Shown here: positions 12,894 to 33,753 of the stretch, piece after piece
How the letters are laid out: every line of letters starts with the position of its first letter
Position numbering within the stretch: the first letter of the stretch is position 1
Source of the DNA: a virus
Direction: 5' to 3' (one strand)
IMG/VR virus record: IMGVR_UViG_3300042937_000157
Coordinates: 1-35,556 of that record
DNA: 35,556 nt
Position numbers and translations under genes: made by a program
The notes under the pieces: model-generated
What the model was told of the DNA's origin: nothing
Seen by the model: only the letters and a program-made list of their open reading frames with translations
Databases searched by the model: none

Positions 12894-15646
12894 TGTTGGT
12901 TCTCCTGATCAAATTGGCGTCCGGTTTGGATTGCGCTCTGCAAGAACTGGATGCGCGCGTCCAAAGATTGTGGCAGGTTGGCCTCTTTTGCGAAATCCCC
13001 GAAGGCTTTGCTCATGGCCGTGCGTCGGATCGAAGCCTGGCTTGGCTGGCCACCCTTGGTGGCAGCCTGCACGGCCAGCTCCTGAAACTCTGGTGATGCA
13101 AAGAGCTTGGATGCCTTCTGCACGCCAGCGCCCTTGGCAGCCGACATCCACTGCACGATGTCAGGCGCAATCAAGCCGCCGCCAGGAATAGTGCCCACAG
13201 TGCCAGTGACGGCTCGTTGCGCCAGGCTGCTGGACATGATTTTGCCCATCAGGCCTTCGACTGCTGCCTCGCCAAGAATCTGGTTGGCCTTGCCAGTGGT
13301 TGGAATGCGAGCCTGTGCGTCAGCGATGCGCCTGGAAATCTCGTACAGGTCACGCGATGCACGATCCCACTCTGGACCCATGATCTTGACCATCTGAGCG
13401 TAGACAGGCGGGTTGGCGCGCAGGCCGCGGTAGATTTTGGTGTACTCAGCAGGGCTGAACACTGTCTCGACAGCGCCTGCCGCTGCTCGGCCTGCTGCCT
13501 TACCTGCCGTCACAGAAGCCAGCGCCGTAGCCAGCGTCTCTTTCTGCAGCTCTTCTGGCACCACCTTCATCAGCCTGTTGAAGGCTGCGGCATCGCCCTT
13601 GGCCGCCGTGGTGATGGCCGTCTGCATGCGCTGGGCCACGCTGCCGTCTATCTCCTGGCCGAATGCGCCGATGATGCGCTTCTCCAGTGCTTTCTGCTTG
13701 GCAGTCAGCAGGTTGGCTGCGCGCAGCTCACGCCGGGCCTCTTCGCCTGCCAAGGTCGCCACGTTGTCCAGTTGATCCTGCGCCAGCGCGCCGTACAGGC
13801 GCTTCAGGTCGCCTTTGGCCATGTTCTCGTAGGGCGACTTGCCGCCCTCAAGAGCCTGGCCGATCAGGTTCTTCTCGCGCAGGAGTCCGAGGTAGGTCAG
13901 CTCGCCCTTCTCCAGCATCTTGGCCAGGTTGGTCTCCTGTGGCGTCATGCGGCCTGCTTCGCCAAGGTTGGCGCGCAGATCGTCGAGGTAGGCTCTCAGG
14001 TTGTTCAAGTCGACTGGAGAGTTCTTCGGAACCATCTCGTCAATCCGGTCGTAGATCGCCTTGGCGTCAGACTTCAGCGTCTGCCTGGTCTGCTGCAGCG
14101 TGTCCACGATCTTCTGCGAGGTGGCACCAGGCGCAGGCCGGCCAGCGACAAATGCGGCATCGAACTGCTGCGAGATGTCATCAGCACGCTGGATGGCTTG
14201 GCGCACCGTGTTTTCCCATGCGGCCTCGGCCTCGCCTGCAACCAACGCGCGTGTCAGGCCCACAGCACTGCGCACCTGCGGGTTGTCGCTGAACACATCG
14301 AAAGGCAGGTCCATGTTAAGGCGCTCGGCAGCAGCCCGAGCCTCTGGGTTAACCTGCGCCAGATCGACCAGCTTAGCCTTGGCAGCAGATGAGCCAGGGC
14401 CAAACCCTGCCGCTTTGCGCGCCAAGTTCAGAATCTCACCCACATCTGCGCCTTCTGCCGCTGCTGCCGCGGGAGGCACTTCAGGGGCCATTGCTGTGCC
14501 CATAGGCGCGCCAGCAGGGCCAGGAGCAGGAGGTGGTGCCTCTGGTATGGCTGCGGCTGCTGGAGCCGCTGCAGGCGCTTCTGTGGCCGCTGGCGCAGCC
14601 GCTGCAGCCGGTCTGCCTCTCAGTGCGTCAATCTGCTGCTGCACCTCGCCAAGCCTGGCCTCTCGGATTCCTCTGGATTCACCCTGCCTCAGCGGTTGCT
14701 GGGAAAGCATTTCCAGCTCGAACTCAAGCGCCCGAAGCTGCGCCTCTGGTGCTCCAGTTGGCGGTCCCATGTCAAAAGTCGGCTCGACGCGAGATGCTGC
14801 GGGAACCGGAGGGGCTGCAGGAGCTCGACCAGTGGCACGCTGGACGCCTCGACGCACGGCTGCAGCCACCGGAGGTGCTGCGCGCTGGATGATCTGCCCA
14901 GCAGGGCCGGTGGCGGTGGCCAAGGCAACTTCTGTGCCGCTGATCTCTCCACCAGTCGCAGCCTGCGTTCCTTCAATTACCGCCTGAGTCGCACCAGCTT
15001 TCAGCGCAGCGCCAGGAATGGTGGCTGCCCGACCTGCTGGTGTGAACGCAAACAGGCCACCCAGTGCTCTTGGAATGTCGCCAGCACTGAATCCAGGCGG
15101 GATGGCGTACTCACGCTGGTCCACAGAAGACCGGATGATGAAGTTGCCTCTTGCATCCTGTCGGACCTGAATTCCAGGAAAGTTGGCTTGCAGAATCTGC
15201 ACGGTTTCCTGCGGGTTGGACAACAAAGTGCCCAGCGCCGACTTGAAGGACGCCATGCTCATCTGGTTGAGTTCTGGCATCGAGGTCCACTCTGGCAGCG
15301 TCATGGTCTCAGGCGTTGCGCGCCTGGTGCCTGTGACCATCTCGCCAATGGACTCGAAAAACCCCATCTTCGGCAGATCGACTTGGCCGCCAAACTGAGC
15401 CACCAGAGCCGACTGATCGACCGCTGGCGCTGCAACGACTGGCGCAGCCGCAGGAGCAGGAGCCACCATTGGTGCAGGACGCACAGCCGCGGCCGGTGCA
15501 GGCACAGGAACTGGTGCAGGACGAACTGCAGCAGCTGGTGCTGCAGCAGGCGCAAGTGCGGGTGCAGGCACAGGAGCTGGCGCTGCAGCCGGTCCTACTA
15601 CCGTGCCGCCGAACTGCCGTGCGAGTGCTTCGTAATCAGTTGCCAT
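12890..15646 (-). CDS. Large Ala/Pro-rich DNA-ejection protein (gp16-like position)
   Basis: The 918-residue protein fills the place of P22 gp16 (609 aa), just before the tailspike. It begins with YEALARQFGGTV, then a long Ala/Pro/Val linker, then a second copy of the motif, QSALVAQFGGQV (about residue 80). A further Ala/Pro-rich stretch lies near 340-400. The rest is mainly helical with coiled-coil-like segments and ends in a Gln-rich tail. It is most likely released into the host envelope at infection to help form a DNA conduit. The assignment rests on position, size and composition, not on a clear motif match. The start overlaps the previous stop by one base. Confidence 0.65.
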   Translation of the reverse strand: MATDYEALARQFGGTVVGPAAAPAPVPAPALAPAAAPAAAVRPAPVPVPAPAAAVRPAPMVAPAPAAAPVVAAPAVDQSALVAQFGGQVDLPKMGFFESIGEMVTGTRRATPETMTLPEWTSMPELNQMSMASFKSALGTLLSNPQETVQILQANFPGIQVRQDARGNFIIRSSVDQREYAIPPGFSAGDIPRALGGLFAFTPAGRAATIPGAALKAGATQAVIEGTQAATGGEISGTEVALATATGPAGQIIQRAAPPVAAAVRRGVQRATGRAPAAPPVPAASRVEPTFDMGPPTGAPEAQLRALEFELEMLSQQPLRQGESRGIREARLGEVQQQIDALRGRPAAAAAPAATEAPAAAPAAAAIPEAPPPAPGPAGAPMGTAMAPEVPPAAAAAEGADVGEILNLARKAAGFGPGSSAAKAKLVDLAQVNPEARAAAERLNMDLPFDVFSDNPQVRSAVGLTRALVAGEAEAAWENTVRQAIQRADDISQQFDAAFVAGRPAPGATSQKIVDTLQQTRQTLKSDAKAIYDRIDEMVPKNSPVDLNNLRAYLDDLRANLGEAGRMTPQETNLAKMLEKGELTYLGLLREKNLIGQALEGGKSPYENMAKGDLKRLYGALAQDQLDNVATLAGEEARRELRAANLLTAKQKALEKRIIGAFGQEIDGSVAQRMQTAITTAAKGDAAAFNRLMKVVPEELQKETLATALASVTAGKAAGRAAAGAVETVFSPAEYTKIYRGLRANPPVYAQMVKIMGPEWDRASRDLYEISRRIADAQARIPTTGKANQILGEAAVEGLMGKIMSSSLAQRAVTGTVGTIPGGGLIAPDIVQWMSAAKGAGVQKASKLFASPEFQELAVQAATKGGQPSQASIRRTAMSKAFGDFAKEANLPQSLDARIQFLQSAIQTGRQFDQENQQ

Positions 15647-29138: not shown

Positions 29139-29572
29139 TTGCCGACCACCACGCGCTCGATCTTGCGGTATTCGATGGGCGCTCCATCGATGCCGCTGTG
29201 CTCATGCTGCTGCACTTCCTTCCAGCGCATCTGGGTCTTAGACCACCAAATGGCCGCCGTTGTGTCGCCTGCCATGACCTTCTGGAATAGGGTTTTCCCT
29301 ACCTGCCCATTGGCCTTGGCCTTGCCAGAGATCAGTTCCTGGGCAAAGTGCTTGCGCAGGGTGTCGGTGTCGATGCCGTCGCGCACCAGGACTGCGATCT
29401 GCTCGATGGGCAGGCCGTAGCCGGACAGGGCTTCGACCTGTTTGCGCTCGGGATCGGTGGGCACAAAAGCCGGTCGGCCAGCGCCTGGCATAGCACCTCC
29501 AGTGCCCGGCCGAGCACCGCCGCGCTTTTTTGGAACCGATTTTTCTTCAACCTTGGGTTTCTTCGTTGCCAT
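29135..29572 (-). CDS. Terminase small subunit
   Basis: The 145-residue protein has a disordered, basic Gly/Pro-rich N-terminus (KKRGGARPGTGGAMPGAGRP), a helix-turn-helix (about 42-75: QVEALSGYGLPIEQIAVLVR, TDTLRKHFAQEL) and a C-terminal helix (FQKVMAGDTTAAIWWSKTQM). This is the layout of small terminases that recognise the packaging site. It is directly upstream of TerL and overlaps it by 4 bases. The 5' end overlaps the methyltransferase gene by 26 bases. GGAGG lies 6 bases before the ATG. Confidence 0.82.
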   Translation of the reverse strand: MATKKPKVEEKSVPKKRGGARPGTGGAMPGAGRPAFVPTDPERKQVEALSGYGLPIEQIAVLVRDGIDTDTLRKHFAQELISGKAKANGQVGKTLFQKVMAGDTTAAIWWSKTQMRWKEVQQHEHSGIDGAPIEYRKIERVVVGK

Positions 29573-30815
29573 TTTTAACCTCCGCGAAAGGTTTTCCAGT
29601 TTCTGCGTGTGTTGCCTGCTTGCCAGTGAACTCCTGCCAGCGCTTGACGATGACGTCGCAGTAGCGTGGGTCCAGTTCTATGATCATGGCCGTGCGGCCG
29701 TTCTTCTCGGCAGCGATCAGAGTCGTGCCCGAGCCGCCAAACGAGTCGAGCACGATATCGCCACCCTTCGTGTTGTTCAGCAGTTGGTACTCGAACAGCG
29801 CCACCGGTTTCATGGTCGGATGCTCTCCGTTGCGCGCTGGCTTATCGAACTCCAGGATGGTCGTCTGCTTGCGGTCCGCTGCCCAGAGGTGGCCAGCGCC
29901 ATCTTTCCAGCCGTACAGGCACGGCTCGTGTTTCCACTGGTAGTCCTGTCGGCCAAGCACCATGCTGGACTTCTTCCAGATCAAGCACTGCCGCACGGTC
30001 CAGCCAGCGTCTTTGGCCGCGCCACGGAAGTTGTAGCCCTCGCTGTCCGCGTGCCAGATGTAGAAGACAGCGCCGGGTTTCATGACCGTGTCAGCCGCCG
30101 TGTAAGCATCACGCAAAAACTGCCGGAACTGGTCGTCGCCCATCGAGTCGTTCTTGATGGTCAGCTTCTCCTTCGTGCCGCCCTCGTAGGCCACGTTGTA
30201 GGGCGGGTCGGTCAGCCACATGTCCACCAGGCTTCCCTGGGTCAGCTTAGCCAGGTCATCGACGCTGGTCGAGTCGCCGCACAGCAGCCGGTGCTTGCCC
30301 ATCACCCAGACGTCACCAGGCACGGTGACCGGGTTTTCCTGCACGGCCGGAGCATCGTCCGGGTCGGTCAGACCTTCGGTCACTTCCACCGGCATCAGGG
30401 CTTTGATCTCCTCGTCGGAGAAGCCGGTCAGTTCAACGTCAAAGCCCAATCCATCGAGTTCGGCCAACTCCAGCGCCAGCAACTCGTTGTCCCAGCCAGC
30501 GTTCAGCGCCAGCTTGTTGTCCGCGATGACGTAGGCGCGCTTTTGGGCCTCGCTCCAGCCCTTGGCCACCATGACTGGAACTTGAGCCATGCCTAGCTTC
30601 CTGGCCGCCATGACGCGGCCGTGTCCGGCAATAATGCCGGCTTCCTCGTCCACCAGGATGGCCGAGGTGAAGCCCCACTCCTTGATGCTGGCCGCCAGTT
30701 GTGCGATCTGGTCCTCGGAATGCGTGCGCGAGTTCTTGGCGTAGGGCACCAGCTTTTCGATGGGCCACTGCTCGACCTTGTCGGCTGGATTTACTTTGTG
30801 GGACTTTGTGGTCAT
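29547..30815 (-). CDS. ParB-like nuclease/DNA methyltransferase fusion (N6/N4 class)
   Basis: The 422-residue fusion has an N-terminal ParB-like domain (about 15-135: IEKLVPYAKNSRTHSEDQIA, GIIAGHGRVMAARKLG). The methyltransferase follows with DPPY at 203-206 (LTDPPYNV) and FGGSG at 359-363. The order DPPY then FGGSG gives a beta-class N6-adenine/N4-cytosine enzyme using S-adenosylmethionine. No cognate restriction enzyme gene is near, so it is an orphan, likely marking phage DNA against host nucleases before packaging. The ParB part could bind DNA or contribute NTP-dependent clamping. The target sequence cannot be inferred. It begins in an ATGA overlap with the DUF6378-like gene and runs into the small terminase. 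Confidence 0.9.
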   Translation of the reverse strand: MTTKSHKVNPADKVEQWPIEKLVPYAKNSRTHSEDQIAQLAASIKEWGFTSAILVDEEAGIIAGHGRVMAARKLGMAQVPVMVAKGWSEAQKRAYVIADNKLALNAGWDNELLALELAELDGLGFDVELTGFSDEEIKALMPVEVTEGLTDPDDAPAVQENPVTVPGDVWVMGKHRLLCGDSTSVDDLAKLTQGSLVDMWLTDPPYNVAYEGGTKEKLTIKNDSMGDDQFRQFLRDAYTAADTVMKPGAVFYIWHADSEGYNFRGAAKDAGWTVRQCLIWKKSSMVLGRQDYQWKHEPCLYGWKDGAGHLWAADRKQTTILEFDKPARNGEHPTMKPVALFEYQLLNNTKGGDIVLDSFGGSGTTLIAAEKNGRTAMIIELDPRYCDVIVKRWQEFTGKQATHAETGKPFAEVKNGNEETQG

Positions 30816-31093
30816 GCTGCATTCTCCTCTTTTTCCAGCCGGTTGGCCACCAGGGTAGCGTAGCCGGCGATGTCGACCCAGTTGTCGGCGTAGTTCGGAT
30901 CGCCGTTCAGGATGCGCGCGATCTTGTGCTGAATCATCTCCAAGGCCTCGCGCTGGTCGGCCTGGAGTCCATCCCAGCCGCTGCGCTCGTGCATGGCAGC
31001 CTTGAGGTCTTGGCTAATCTTGGCATGTCCCTGGAAGCTGCCATACCGACCTTCACGGCCGGCCAGCATCTCGTTCACGTTGGTCTGTGTCAT
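30812..31093 (-). CDS. DUF6378-like protein
   Basis: The 93-residue protein has the pattern NEMLAGREGRYGSFQGHAKI ... LQADQREALEMIQHKIARIL ... DNWVDIAGYATLVANRL. This is the DUF6378 phage family, a helical protein related by look to MazG/NTP-pyrophosphohydrolase-type folds. The E/D residues of the 'ALEMIQHKIARI...D...D' part could bind a metal, but catalysis is unproven. It overlaps neighbours by ATGA at both ends. Confidence 0.78.
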   Translation of the reverse strand: MTQTNVNEMLAGREGRYGSFQGHAKISQDLKAAMHERSGWDGLQADQREALEMIQHKIARILNGDPNYADNWVDIAGYATLVANRLEKEENAA

Positions 31094-31473
31094 GGTTTCT
31101 CGCTCATGTTCGGAGTTACAAGATCATGCCATTTTCGATGGCATGTGCGGCAGAGATACGCAACGGGCCAGCGGTTGGCCTCGTCACCGAATAAATACTG
31201 TGGTGCCCAGTGGTGCAATTCACCTTCATTTGCATCGCACACTTCGCATTTAATCTGGATTTGTTTTTTCTCAATATATTCTGCGGTTTTTGTTTTGACA
31301 TATTTCAACGGTCCATTTTCTTTTGCATATTCCTGTGCGATTATTTTCTTCACATATTTTGCGAATACTTCACCGCATGCATCGCAGTAGATCGGATAGA
31401 CAGTCGCTCCTGATGCAATGTTGGTGATGCCGATCTTGAGCTGGTCTGATCCGCATGTCTTGCACTTATCCAC
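31090..31473 (-). CDS. HNH-type endonuclease
   Basis: The 127-residue protein starts at GTG 31473, with AAGGAG 6-8 bases upstream. It carries two Cys pairs at the N-terminus (CKTCGS, YCDACGE). The C-terminal HNH core is CEVCDANEGELHHWAPQYLF with LHH, then LCRTCHRKWHD; the four cysteines bind zinc. HNH proteins near terminase genes can aid terminase cutting in other phages; here two genes separate them. The middle (about 31250-31400) is markedly AT-rich compared with neighbours, which suggests recent acquisition. The in-frame ORF reaches upstream into the repeat region but lacks a start site there. Confidence 0.75.
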   Translation of the reverse strand: MDKCKTCGSDQLKIGITNIASGATVYPIYCDACGEVFAKYVKKIIAQEYAKENGPLKYVKTKTAEYIEKKQIQIKCEVCDANEGELHHWAPQYLFGDEANRWPVAYLCRTCHRKWHDLVTPNMSEKP

Positions 31474-31514
31474 AGGTTGCTCCTTCCAGGTCGAAAAAAT
31501 CGCACATCGTGGCT

Positions 31515-31623
31515 GGGACAATGGGACACACCCTAAAGGTGTGTGTCCTGTCCTGTCCCAGGCTGCCTCGCCTTGTCCTCGGGACATTTGTCCCAGTTTG
31601 TCCTGTCTTGTCCCATTTGTCCC
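31515..31623. repeat. Iteron-like cluster of GGGACA/TGTCC motifs, candidate origin
   Basis: In the 153-base gap between the primase-helicase stop and the HNH start, the motif TGTCC(C) or its complement GGGACA occurs 11 times in about 110 bases: 31515, 31523, 31544, 31549, 31554, 31574, 31581, 31589, 31599, 31609 and 31618. Several are direct repeats in tandem. A 7-bp hairpin ACACACC/GGTGTGT (31526-31532, 31538-31544) lies inside the cluster. Repeats of this density beside a replication initiator-like gene suggest an origin or a protein-binding array; this is inferred. Confidence 0.6.
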
Positions 31624-31626
31624 ACC

Positions 31627-33516
31627 CTACTTTTCAGTCCTTCGGACCATCAGCGTTGCTGCCGTTGCGTTGTCTGAGACAACCCAGCCATGCTCGTGCG
31701 CCACAATAATCTGAGCGTTCAGCAGGTTATAAATCAGCCGTCCTTTTTTGCTTTCCTGAGCGTAGGTTTTTGCTGTCGATTCTGTCAGTCCTTCGTTTGT
31801 CGTAAGATATTGAAGCAGTGCGCTGCGCGACAGATAAGGCATTTTGTCTCGGTCTTCAGCGCCAGCATGCCACCATGCATTTGTGAATTTCCGAATATCT
31901 TTTTGAATCTCAGATTCTTTTTTAGGTTTTTGCTCAGGCGCATTTTCTTCAATCACGAATACTGCGCCTTTTATTTCCTCGCCATCCTCATCAATCCATC
32001 CAAGCGGCACCGTTTCCAACTTGCCGAAGAACGGATTGGGAGGCTCTGCGTCCTTCATCTTGGTGCAGGAAATCTCGATGCTGTTGTCGTTCTTGGAGAC
32101 CAGGATCGATGCGTCCAGCGAGGCCTTCCAGGCGCTGGAGCCGCGTGCGCGCTGCTTGGACTCTGCTGCATGTCCGGTGTGGTGATTCAGGCACACGCTG
32201 GCGCTTAGTGCTCGGGCCACGATGTTGCATGCGTTGAGCATGTTGCGGGTGTCCTTGGCGCTGTTCTCATCGCCACTCATGTGGTTGTTGACCGTGTCAA
32301 TGAAGATCGCCACCGCATCGTCCTGAGTGATCTCTCGCACCGCGTTGATGATCTGAGCTGCAGCGGCTGGACTGTCGATGTCGATCGCTTTGTTCGAGAT
32401 CAGCAGGTTGTCCAGATTCTGGACGCCGTTGGCCTTGCACCAAGCTGTGACGCGCTGGCGCAGGCCATAGTTGCCCTCGCCTGCCATGTAGACCACCAGG
32501 CCTGCCTTGGTCTTGTGGCCATGCCATTGCAGGCCGGCAGCGATGTGGCAGGCCATGTCCAGGGTGATGAAGGTCTTGCCGGAGCCTGACTCGCCGTAGA
32601 CCATGCTCACGCCACTGTCTGGAACCCATCCTTTGATGATCCAGCGCAGCGGAGCAGGCTGGCCAAGGTAGGACGTTGCCCTGGTGAAGTAGTATTCCTG
32701 CACCTGCGCTCTGGTGGCCTCCAGGATTGCCTCGGCTGCATCGCTGCCCAAGCTGGTGGCCGCAGCCACGTCTGATTCAGGCTCATATCGGCAGACCGAT
32801 CTGACGATCTGGGACAGCTCAGACGATGGCAGTGGAATCTCGCAGCGGGTCTCGTTGGCAATGGCCAGCGCCGCCATGATCTCTGCCTCGGTCATGCCGT
32901 AGCGCCGCATGGCACCACCCAGGGCTGTCAGACCGTTGTTCCGGCTGCCTTGGATCAGACCGCCGCCCGTGGTGACCGCCTGGCGTGTCTCAGGCTTGCG
33001 CATTGCCCTGTAGGACTTCAGCCACTGTTCCGGGATCGTGAAAGGTGCAACGCCATCAAACGGATCAGATGACGCCTCCCACTGGTAGCTGCGTCCTTCA
33101 ATCGTCGATGGGAAGGCCACAAAGTACCGGCCATCGGCAAGCAAGTCCACACCTTCGGCCAGCTTGCAGGATCGAATCTCTGGGTTGTAGACGCCGATGT
33201 GGTGCTCTCCACCACCTGCAGTCATCTGCATGGCACCGTCTGGCACCTTGCCATTGGACTCCAGCCAGCTCGACCAGGACGAGTCGCCACCATTCCTGGG
33301 GTCCACATCGAACACCACAATGCCAGATCGTTCGCCGGCCGCAATGCCGATGTTGAAGTCTGGGTTCTGCGCCCACCATCTGGCGATCTGCTCCGGGTCT
33401 GTCGTGGCGTCTTTGACCCCATGCTGAGTGGCAGGCACCTTGCCATTTGGCACCACTGGGATGACATGCCAGCCCCATGATGCGTAGGTCAGTGCTGCTT
33501 CAGCCTTGGTTGTCAT
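31627..33516 (-). CDS. Primase-polymerase/helicase (Prim-Pol + RepA-like ATPase)
   Basis: The 629-residue protein joins an archaeo-eukaryotic-type Prim-Pol domain (about 5-160) to a helicase. The first has YASWGWHVIPVVPNGKVPAT, metal aspartates D70 and D72 in FDVDPRNGG, and HH at 105-106. A PriCT-like linker (GSRNNGLTALGGAMRRYGM) follows. The helicase has Walker A GESGSGKT at 308-315 and Walker B IFIDT with D407, a RepA/AAA_25 type. It probably primes and unwinds phage DNA. The C-terminal about 110 residues (after 510) are Lys/Glu-rich and less GC-rich. The start overlaps the HTH gene by 17 bases. Confidence 0.92.
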   Translation of the reverse strand: MTTKAEAALTYASWGWHVIPVVPNGKVPATQHGVKDATTDPEQIARWWAQNPDFNIGIAAGERSGIVVFDVDPRNGGDSSWSSWLESNGKVPDGAMQMTAGGGEHHIGVYNPEIRSCKLAEGVDLLADGRYFVAFPSTIEGRSYQWEASSDPFDGVAPFTIPEQWLKSYRAMRKPETRQAVTTGGGLIQGSRNNGLTALGGAMRRYGMTEAEIMAALAIANETRCEIPLPSSELSQIVRSVCRYEPESDVAAATSLGSDAAEAILEATRAQVQEYYFTRATSYLGQPAPLRWIIKGWVPDSGVSMVYGESGSGKTFITLDMACHIAAGLQWHGHKTKAGLVVYMAGEGNYGLRQRVTAWCKANGVQNLDNLLISNKAIDIDSPAAAAQIINAVREITQDDAVAIFIDTVNNHMSGDENSAKDTRNMLNACNIVARALSASVCLNHHTGHAAESKQRARGSSAWKASLDASILVSKNDNSIEISCTKMKDAEPPNPFFGKLETVPLGWIDEDGEEIKGAVFVIEENAPEQKPKKESEIQKDIRKFTNAWWHAGAEDRDKMPYLSRSALLQYLTTNEGLTESTAKTYAQESKKGRLIYNLLNAQIIVAHEHGWVVSDNATAATLMVRRTEK

Positions 33517-33688
33517 GAGTGCGACCTTCCAAGTAGTTGGACAGCGCCATCAAGACCTTGTAGGTCGGATTGGCGTCTGGGTTGTCCCTGACCTCTCGGA
33601 TGGTGTTGTAGTGCAGCCCAGTGGCCTCTGCGACCTTGGCCGGCATCCTGTCGGATAAGGCCTTGCGAATCTGCTCCAGGGTCATCAT
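33500..33688 (-). CDS. Small Cro-like helix-turn-helix regulator
   Basis: The 62-residue protein MMTLEQIRKALSDRMPAKVA continues into a compact HTH with VAEATGLHYNTIREVRDNP as turn and recognition helix, then a helix YKVLMALSNYLEG. AGAGGA lies 7 bases before ATG 33688; the in-frame upstream extension crosses the promoter region and is rejected. As first gene of the leftward unit, next to overlapping divergent promoters, it is well placed to repress one or both. No second (CI-like) repressor was seen. Confidence 0.85.
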   Translation of the reverse strand: MMTLEQIRKALSDRMPAKVAEATGLHYNTIREVRDNPDANPTYKVLMALSNYLEGRTHDNQG

Positions 33689-33723
33689 GTTTGAATCCTC
33701 TATAAAAAAATTTCCGGTGGGTG

Positions 33724-33753
33724 TTGACATCCTACATTTTTTTGGAGTACAGT
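33724..33753 (+). promoter_or_regulatory. Rightward sigma-70-like promoter
   Basis: TTGACA (33724-33729, perfect -35), 18-base spacer with a T-run, TACAGT (33748-33753, -10). The start would be near 33760, leaving a leader of about 48 bases to the Sak4-like gene. A 10-base imperfect palindrome GTGCAAGCAC (33752-33761) covers the -10 edge and start, a possible operator. An inverted repeat CACCTC/GAGGTG (33761-33766, 33784-33789) follows in the leader. Confidence 0.7.

Follow-up and report, generated by a model that had tools for sequence, protein, structure and literature searches.

In the window, by which we mean the whole stretch of 35,556 nucleotides of the IMG/VR virus record IMGVR_UViG_3300042937_000157, a gene for a primase-helicase is read from the minus strand. 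It is preceded by a small gene for a Cro-like HTH protein and followed, only 3 bp beyond its end at 31627, by a dense array of short repeats. Past the array lie a perfect DnaA box and the start of the next gene (Table 1). An earlier sequence-only reading had taken the protein for a Prim-Pol/RepA-like helicase and had placed the repeats directly after its gene; both statements hold. The domain matches are PF09250, PF08708 and PF13481 (Prim-Pol, PriCT-1 and AAA_25), and the helicase part matches the structure of RSF1010 RepA (1nlf/1olo) with a TM-score, by target length, of about 0.69-0.70. At 29547-30815, again on the minus strand, a ParB N-terminal domain fused to an N6/N4 DNA methyltransferase is encoded just upstream of the terminase genes. 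Several sister phages also differ strongly, by divergence or replacement, in the region around the Cro-like gene (33500-33730, minus strand).

Table 1. Features of the locus, their strand and the evidence or remark that goes with each
Feature	Position	Strand	Evidence or remark
Gene of the small Cro-like HTH protein, next upstream of the helicase gene; rival iteron reader, unsupported	33500..33688	-	
Prim-Pol / PriCT-1 / RepA-like (RecA-fold) helicase, 629 aa; proposed initiator	31627..33516	-	
C-terminal domain (CTD), residues 536-628, predicted winged helix; proposed iteron reader	31633..31911	-	AlphaFold2, word covariation
Predicted recognition helix, residues 579-585 (ESTAKTY)	31762..31782	-	nearly invariant in GGGACA clade
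Iteron array, 11 sites; proposed origin core	31515..31623	-	site counts, shuffles, same place in relatives
Helicase-proximal block of direct iterons, starts 9-10 bp apart	31589..31623	-	spacing common to different words
Direct iterons of the helicase-proximal block	31618-31623, 31609-31614, 31599-31603, 31589-31594	-	
Inverted iteron, end of first block	31581..31586	+	site scan, layout comparison
GGACAAGGCG element separating the two blocks; corresponds to the relatives' GGGGCAA-like element	31569..31578	-	
Iteron core within the GGACAAGGCG element	31574-31578	-	
Second block, three direct iteron cores in 5-bp steps	31544..31559	-	31554-31559, 31549-31553, 31544-31548
Hairpin GGACACAC-ACCTTTAGG-GTGTGTCC	31524..31548	-	stem complementarity kept in relatives
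Two inverted iterons beyond the hairpin	31515..31528	+	31523-31528, 31515-31520
Perfect DnaA box TTATCCACA	31466..31474	+	only one in record; overlaps GTG start of downstream gene
Downstream gene, GTG start 31473, carries the DnaA box	31090..31473	-	weak profile matches only

The repeats are GGACA/TGTCC sites. Eleven copies in about 110 bases, direct and inverted, had been claimed, and a fresh count yields the same number at 31515-31623. Seven of them are complete GGGACA/TGTCCC hexamers; on the helicase-coding (minus) strand eight read GGACA and three are inverted. Such a density is not reached by chance: the densest 110-bp stretch elsewhere in the window holds 3 sites, dinucleotide shuffles of the entire window (n=200) never exceeded 4, and shuffles of the array region itself (n=5,000) never exceeded 6. 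A second array was not found in the window, nor were exact terminal repeats in the record.

The open reading frame 31090-31587 has a possible ATG start inside the array. The array can nevertheless be regarded as noncoding, as had been assumed, because stop codons close this frame upstream in 39 of the 48 relatives that share the downstream start, and because the GTG at 31473 is preceded by a Shine-Dalgarno-like sequence. In L008, L041 and L043, which belong to subtypes without the window's downstream gene start, a sigma-70-like sequence, TTGCGT-17-TCTAAT or TATAAT, follows the array (seen by eye, unscored).

A common layout is observed in the arrays of this family. It begins next to the helicase gene with 2-4 direct sites, separated by spacers of mostly 3-5 bp (a period of about 10 bp), and 1-2 inverted ones. 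A middle part of about 20-38 bp follows, often with a GGGGCAA-like element, which is present in 64 of 91 arrays. The last part consists of two direct sites, a hairpin of 14-17 bp and two inverted sites. A cluster of repeats at roughly helical spacing, which is one criterion for an iteron origin, is thus at hand.

As to the hairpin, its presence had been predicted correctly, while its stem, given as 7 bp, is slightly better: 8 bp (GGACACAC at 31524-31531 and GTGTGTCC at 31541-31548) around a 9-nt loop of the CCTTTAGG type. Between relatives the stems vary in sequence yet stay complementary, often around a CCTTTAGG-type centre. We read this as pairing under selection, a reading that depends on comparison by eye and a stem search without any formal covariation test. 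Stem bases that change in step, together with a stability of -22 kcal/mol as RNA, could also mean that hairpin and repeats act in the transcript, be it as a terminator, a processing site or an attenuator after the helicase gene. This appears extremely unlikely. A scan of the coding strand revealed nothing like a terminator at the array, and the definition of an intrinsic terminator, which asks for a GC-rich hairpin with a T tract immediately behind it on that strand, is not fulfilled. A search of Rfam remained without a significant match. Moreover, the spacing of the sites near 10 bp suits binding to double-stranded DNA, and a role in RNA does not predict that the hexamer covaries with a domain of the helicase (see below).

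Used as a query against viral contigs, the helicase produced 72 loci, and three further searches enlarged the set to about 190 loci with related helicases. In the first 72, the array follows directly on the helicase stop in nearly all loci that include the 3' end of the gene, among them about 60 Prim-Pol relatives with the array at the same place; the comparison with close relatives that had been suggested as a check is thereby passed. At least 7 copies of one hexamer within the 350 bp after the helicase stop were seen in 75 of 131 non-redundant loci, compared with 6 of 2,221 background windows drawn from these loci. What changes is the repeated hexamer itself, here called the word. A relative with 58% identity (L063) has a GGTACC array at the same place, and distant relatives have arrays of the same layout with a different hexamer. 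GGGACA, GGTACA, GGTTCA, GGTACC, GGTAAC, CGTAAC, CTAACA and others are used by different phages, about twenty distinct words in a single layout.

Some of these phages are in culture. After a homologous helicase, Idiomarinaceae phage 1N2-2 carries GGTACA eleven times, the Alteromonas phages XX1924 and PB15 carry 12-13 copies of GGTTCA, and Salicola phage CGphi29 has a GGGACA/GAGACA array. The records of all four (PB15, XX1924, CGphi29 and 1N2-2) show no origin annotation at the place of the array. Their homology to the window protein is confined to the helicase part and the C-terminus, and the helicase proteins of PB15 and XX1924 are annotated as TOPRIM proteins; the array is therefore independent of the type of primase. 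In the complete circular relative MW202867 (L313), a hypothetical protein in GenBank (14428-14592) spans the iteron array and is probably an over-call.

A clear array is absent in about 28 of 133 non-redundant loci. These include a clade of about 23 with TOPRIM-type homologues (most of L324-L363, and L318), in which no hexamer array lies within about 3 kb of the helicase. Outside the arrays the phages do not avoid their own word: 104 occurrences were observed in 11 genomes and 97 expected. The low GGGACA count of the window relative to dinucleotide shuffles is therefore not to be taken as avoidance.

The neighbourhood of the array allows yet another idea. Terminase genes and the ParB-N/methyltransferase gene lie 1-2 kb downstream in the same orientation, and the array could be a pac or partition site with the terminase small subunit or the fusion protein as its reader. 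We can hardly credit this at all, since loci with other downstream genes still have the array beside the helicase, and the word goes with the CTD of the helicase, although terminase and ParB were not part of the covariation comparison.

This CTD deserves a closer look. The AlphaFold2 model of the whole helicase is of low confidence (pLDDT 67), but the CTD is modelled confidently, with a pLDDT of 83-93 inside the whole model and of 92 alone. Its predicted topology is helix-strand-helix-helix-helix-wing. Conservation of the domain within the GGGACA clade is highest in the predicted recognition helix (residues 579-585, 0.96) and in the helix that follows it (0.97). A sequence search of the CTD against the PDB gave no match. 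The structure search against the PDB gave nothing significant either (best E 0.08); its top non-significant matches were mostly winged-helix regulators, and P4 alpha was absent from the best 50. That the CTD reads the iterons is an inference, supported by the predicted winged helix and by the covariation described next; there are neither binding data nor a modelled DNA contact.

Among 275 pairs of loci with a CTD identity of at least 83%, none use different words, whereas 10 pairs do so at a core identity of at least 95%. When three regions of the protein compete in one logistic model, the standardised weights are 0.21 for the NTD, 0.00 for the core and 4.8 for the CTD. The pairs are not phylogenetically independent, and all these pair figures are to be taken as descriptive, not as p-values. 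Sister phages illustrate the coupling. L419 and L422 (GTAACA and GGTACC) have a core identity of 1.00 and a CTD identity of 0.51. For L410-412 versus L414-415 (ACCCCC and CTAACA) the values are 0.98 and 0.27-0.28, and for L402 and L403 (CGCAAC and CGTAAC) 0.97 and 0.82. In the last pair the changes cluster in the last 80 residues, three of them in or beside the predicted recognition helix. The reverse is seen in L403 and L406, which have a common word and practically the same CTD and diverge elsewhere. An adjacent initiator gene with a DNA-binding domain that covaries with the repeat, another criterion for an iteron origin, is accordingly found. L319/L321 was left out as a case of word change, because both carry the core TGGACAA. 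The word GGTACA occurs in L323, L391 and L314 with CTDs that are only about 20-34% identical, one word with perhaps different readers; a simple one-to-one code can therefore not be postulated.

Covariation of neighbours does not, of course, prove recognition. The end of the gene and the repeats are contiguous, and they might sit in a recombination-prone block and change together merely as neighbours. In two of the sister contrasts, L410/L414 and L402/L403, well-conserved DNA does lie on either side of the changed block; L419 and L422 show weaker conservation past the array. Linked exchange alone could thus explain part of the covariation. As the full explanation it is highly unlikely in our view, because it leaves too much aside: the fixed layout under a changing word, the pair L403/L406 in which CTD and word were kept while the rest diverged, the high conservation of the predicted recognition helix in a clade with one word, and the array-less loci, most of which share a CTD with a longer, replaced HTH segment where the recognition helix is expected.

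The other candidate for a reader is the small Cro-like protein. Proteins of this type bind short repeated operators, and its gene stands beside the helicase gene in many of these phages. The array might then be its operator or autoregulatory site and control early transcription, which would go together with the sigma-70-like sequences just after the array in some relatives (by eye, unscored). Yet identity in the HTH protein is a much poorer predictor of the word than identity in the CTD (AUC 0.79 versus 0.97 on the same pairs), and the protein was rejected as the word reader. L402 and L403 share the recognition helix of the HTH protein and differ in their words, while L403 and L406 share the word and differ in this helix. 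No such HTH was seen upstream in the array-bearing L410, L411, L414 and L415. Finally, the array sits after the gene, and the window scan detected no promoter-like site there. An operator is, on this evidence, very unlikely.

Other features expected of an origin are present in part. The DnaA box is 40 bp away from the array, so that a DnaA box near iterons, a further criterion for an iteron origin, is found. Perfect boxes occur near 24 of 95 arrays and in 3 of 1,009 background windows. However, 21 of the 24 cases come from the related Prim-Pol clade, and most boxes there overlap the start of a gene; because this start is conserved, the conservation of the box in the GGGACA clade is not independent. 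The few independent cases are L365 with three boxes, L417 with two and L419 with one. A change of GC skew near 31.5 kb, which had been proposed as a check, was not seen: the cumulative skew has no extremum at the array, neither in the window nor in MW202867. For a 35-kb phage with gene-strand bias this is a weak and non-defining criterion. Directly beside the array there is no convincing AT-rich opening element; an AT content of 0.62-0.72 is reached at 31260-31379, about 140 bp from the array and inside a gene.

GGGACA arrays are not restricted to this helicase. Elsewhere in viral contigs they often adjoin DnaD-like, O-like or DnaB initiators, and in a scan of a genome collection nearly all arrays lacked a helicase of this family; both statements refer to the matches listed. 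In L134, L189 and similar contigs, GGGACA arrays lie inside open reading frames of about 240 aa that are followed by one of about 458 aa, an arrangement like that of lambda O/P. DnaD- and O-like matches occur in the set that contains L134 and L189.

Most likely, the phage starts its replication here: the array would be the iteron core of the origin and would be bound by the primase-helicase itself. We hold this with considerable confidence, although no binding or origin experiment stands behind it. The sequence-only reading had called the array iteron-like, an origin or an initiator-binding site, and the conserved place, the covariation of word and CTD, and the adjoining DnaA box support this; binding and origin activity remain inferred. 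The following sequence of events can be envisaged. Several copies of the Prim-Pol/RepA-like helicase would bind the iterons via their C-terminal winged helices and, because the sites are about 10 bp apart, would sit on one face of the double helix. They might then assemble as hexamers around the central hairpin. The DNA would open at the array, where the hairpin and host DnaA at the neighbouring box may be of help, and the first primers would come from the Prim-Pol domain. Binding, helicase loading, the aid in opening and priming are all deduced from position, layout, word change and coupling to the CTD, which are the observed part.

Since reader and sites are encoded side by side, a single exchange could replace both, and phages might in this way acquire another self-specific origin word in one cassette. 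Whether this amounts to a fast-changing self/non-self code, in which word and reader are swapped together and an initiator fires only its own origin, is speculative, and we rather doubt it. If true, such a code would allow co-infecting relatives to remain compatible, or would deny satellites and rivals the use of the replication machinery, and the natural pairs of word and reader would be a ready collection in which to study how winged helices change the DNA they recognise. In any case, an origin and its initiator are predicted for widespread tailed phages in a testable form, and with about twenty words, each with its own reader domain, specificity and evolution of the origin become accessible to domain swaps.

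The literature search did not disclose any paper that describes these arrays. Related principles, however, are well documented. SaPI Rep helicases use their CTDs to recognise iteron origins that lie immediately 3' of their own genes, and SCCmec Cch2 binds such a site in vitro (PMC7581432). The same order of gene and origin is found in PICIs, for several of which iteron sequences are given (PMC6092414). Like the window, these systems have a primase-helicase, fused or adjacent, and short iterons immediately 3' of the gene; an array directly downstream of a primase-helicase gene is thus found as far as position goes, while origin activity is inferred. The differences are equally clear. Their helicases are of the DUF927 or Primase_Cterm/D5 type and reside on satellites or islands, whereas the present ones are RepA-like with a RecA fold, are joined to a Prim-Pol or TOPRIM primase, and occur in tailed phages. 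In PICIs two sets of iterons flank an AT-rich region; here a hairpin lies between pairs of iterons. A satellite should also lack virion genes, and this does not apply: the record encodes a large terminase and a P22-like portal and is therefore a phage, not a PICI. A change of word of such breadth was not found in the SaPI/PICI/Cch2 literature searched.

Further parallels come from other systems. The alpha protein of satellite phage P4, with its ori/crr, combines primase, helicase and an origin-binding winged helix that reads short repeats in one protein; its primase is of the TOPRIM type (PMC4234260). In the present family the partner of the RepA-like helicase is Prim-Pol in the window and TOPRIM in relatives. 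In pRN1, the Prim-Pol-helicase ORF904 has a winged helix at its C-terminus, an essential origin with a stem-loop follows just downstream of its gene, and the order of small repressor gene, Prim-Pol-helicase and 3' origin is that of the window (PMC4234260). Unlike the window, pRN1 is a crenarchaeal plasmid with an SF3 helicase and a large stem-loop without iterons. RSF1010 RepA shares the helicase fold, but initiation in RSF1010 is split among three polypeptides (PMC4234260). Origin recognition has been suggested earlier for the winged helix at the C-terminus of Prim-Pol fusions, some of which contain RepA-type helicases (PMC5862659). The O-type origin of phage lambda, too, resembles the window in that an iteron array has its initiator encoded at the site. 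Lambda's iterons, however, lie inside the O gene, and its initiator has neither a helicase nor a primase domain. The kind of origin is thus known already; what the literature searched does not describe is a version with a RecA-fold helicase that occurs in tailed phages and uses a word that changes rapidly.
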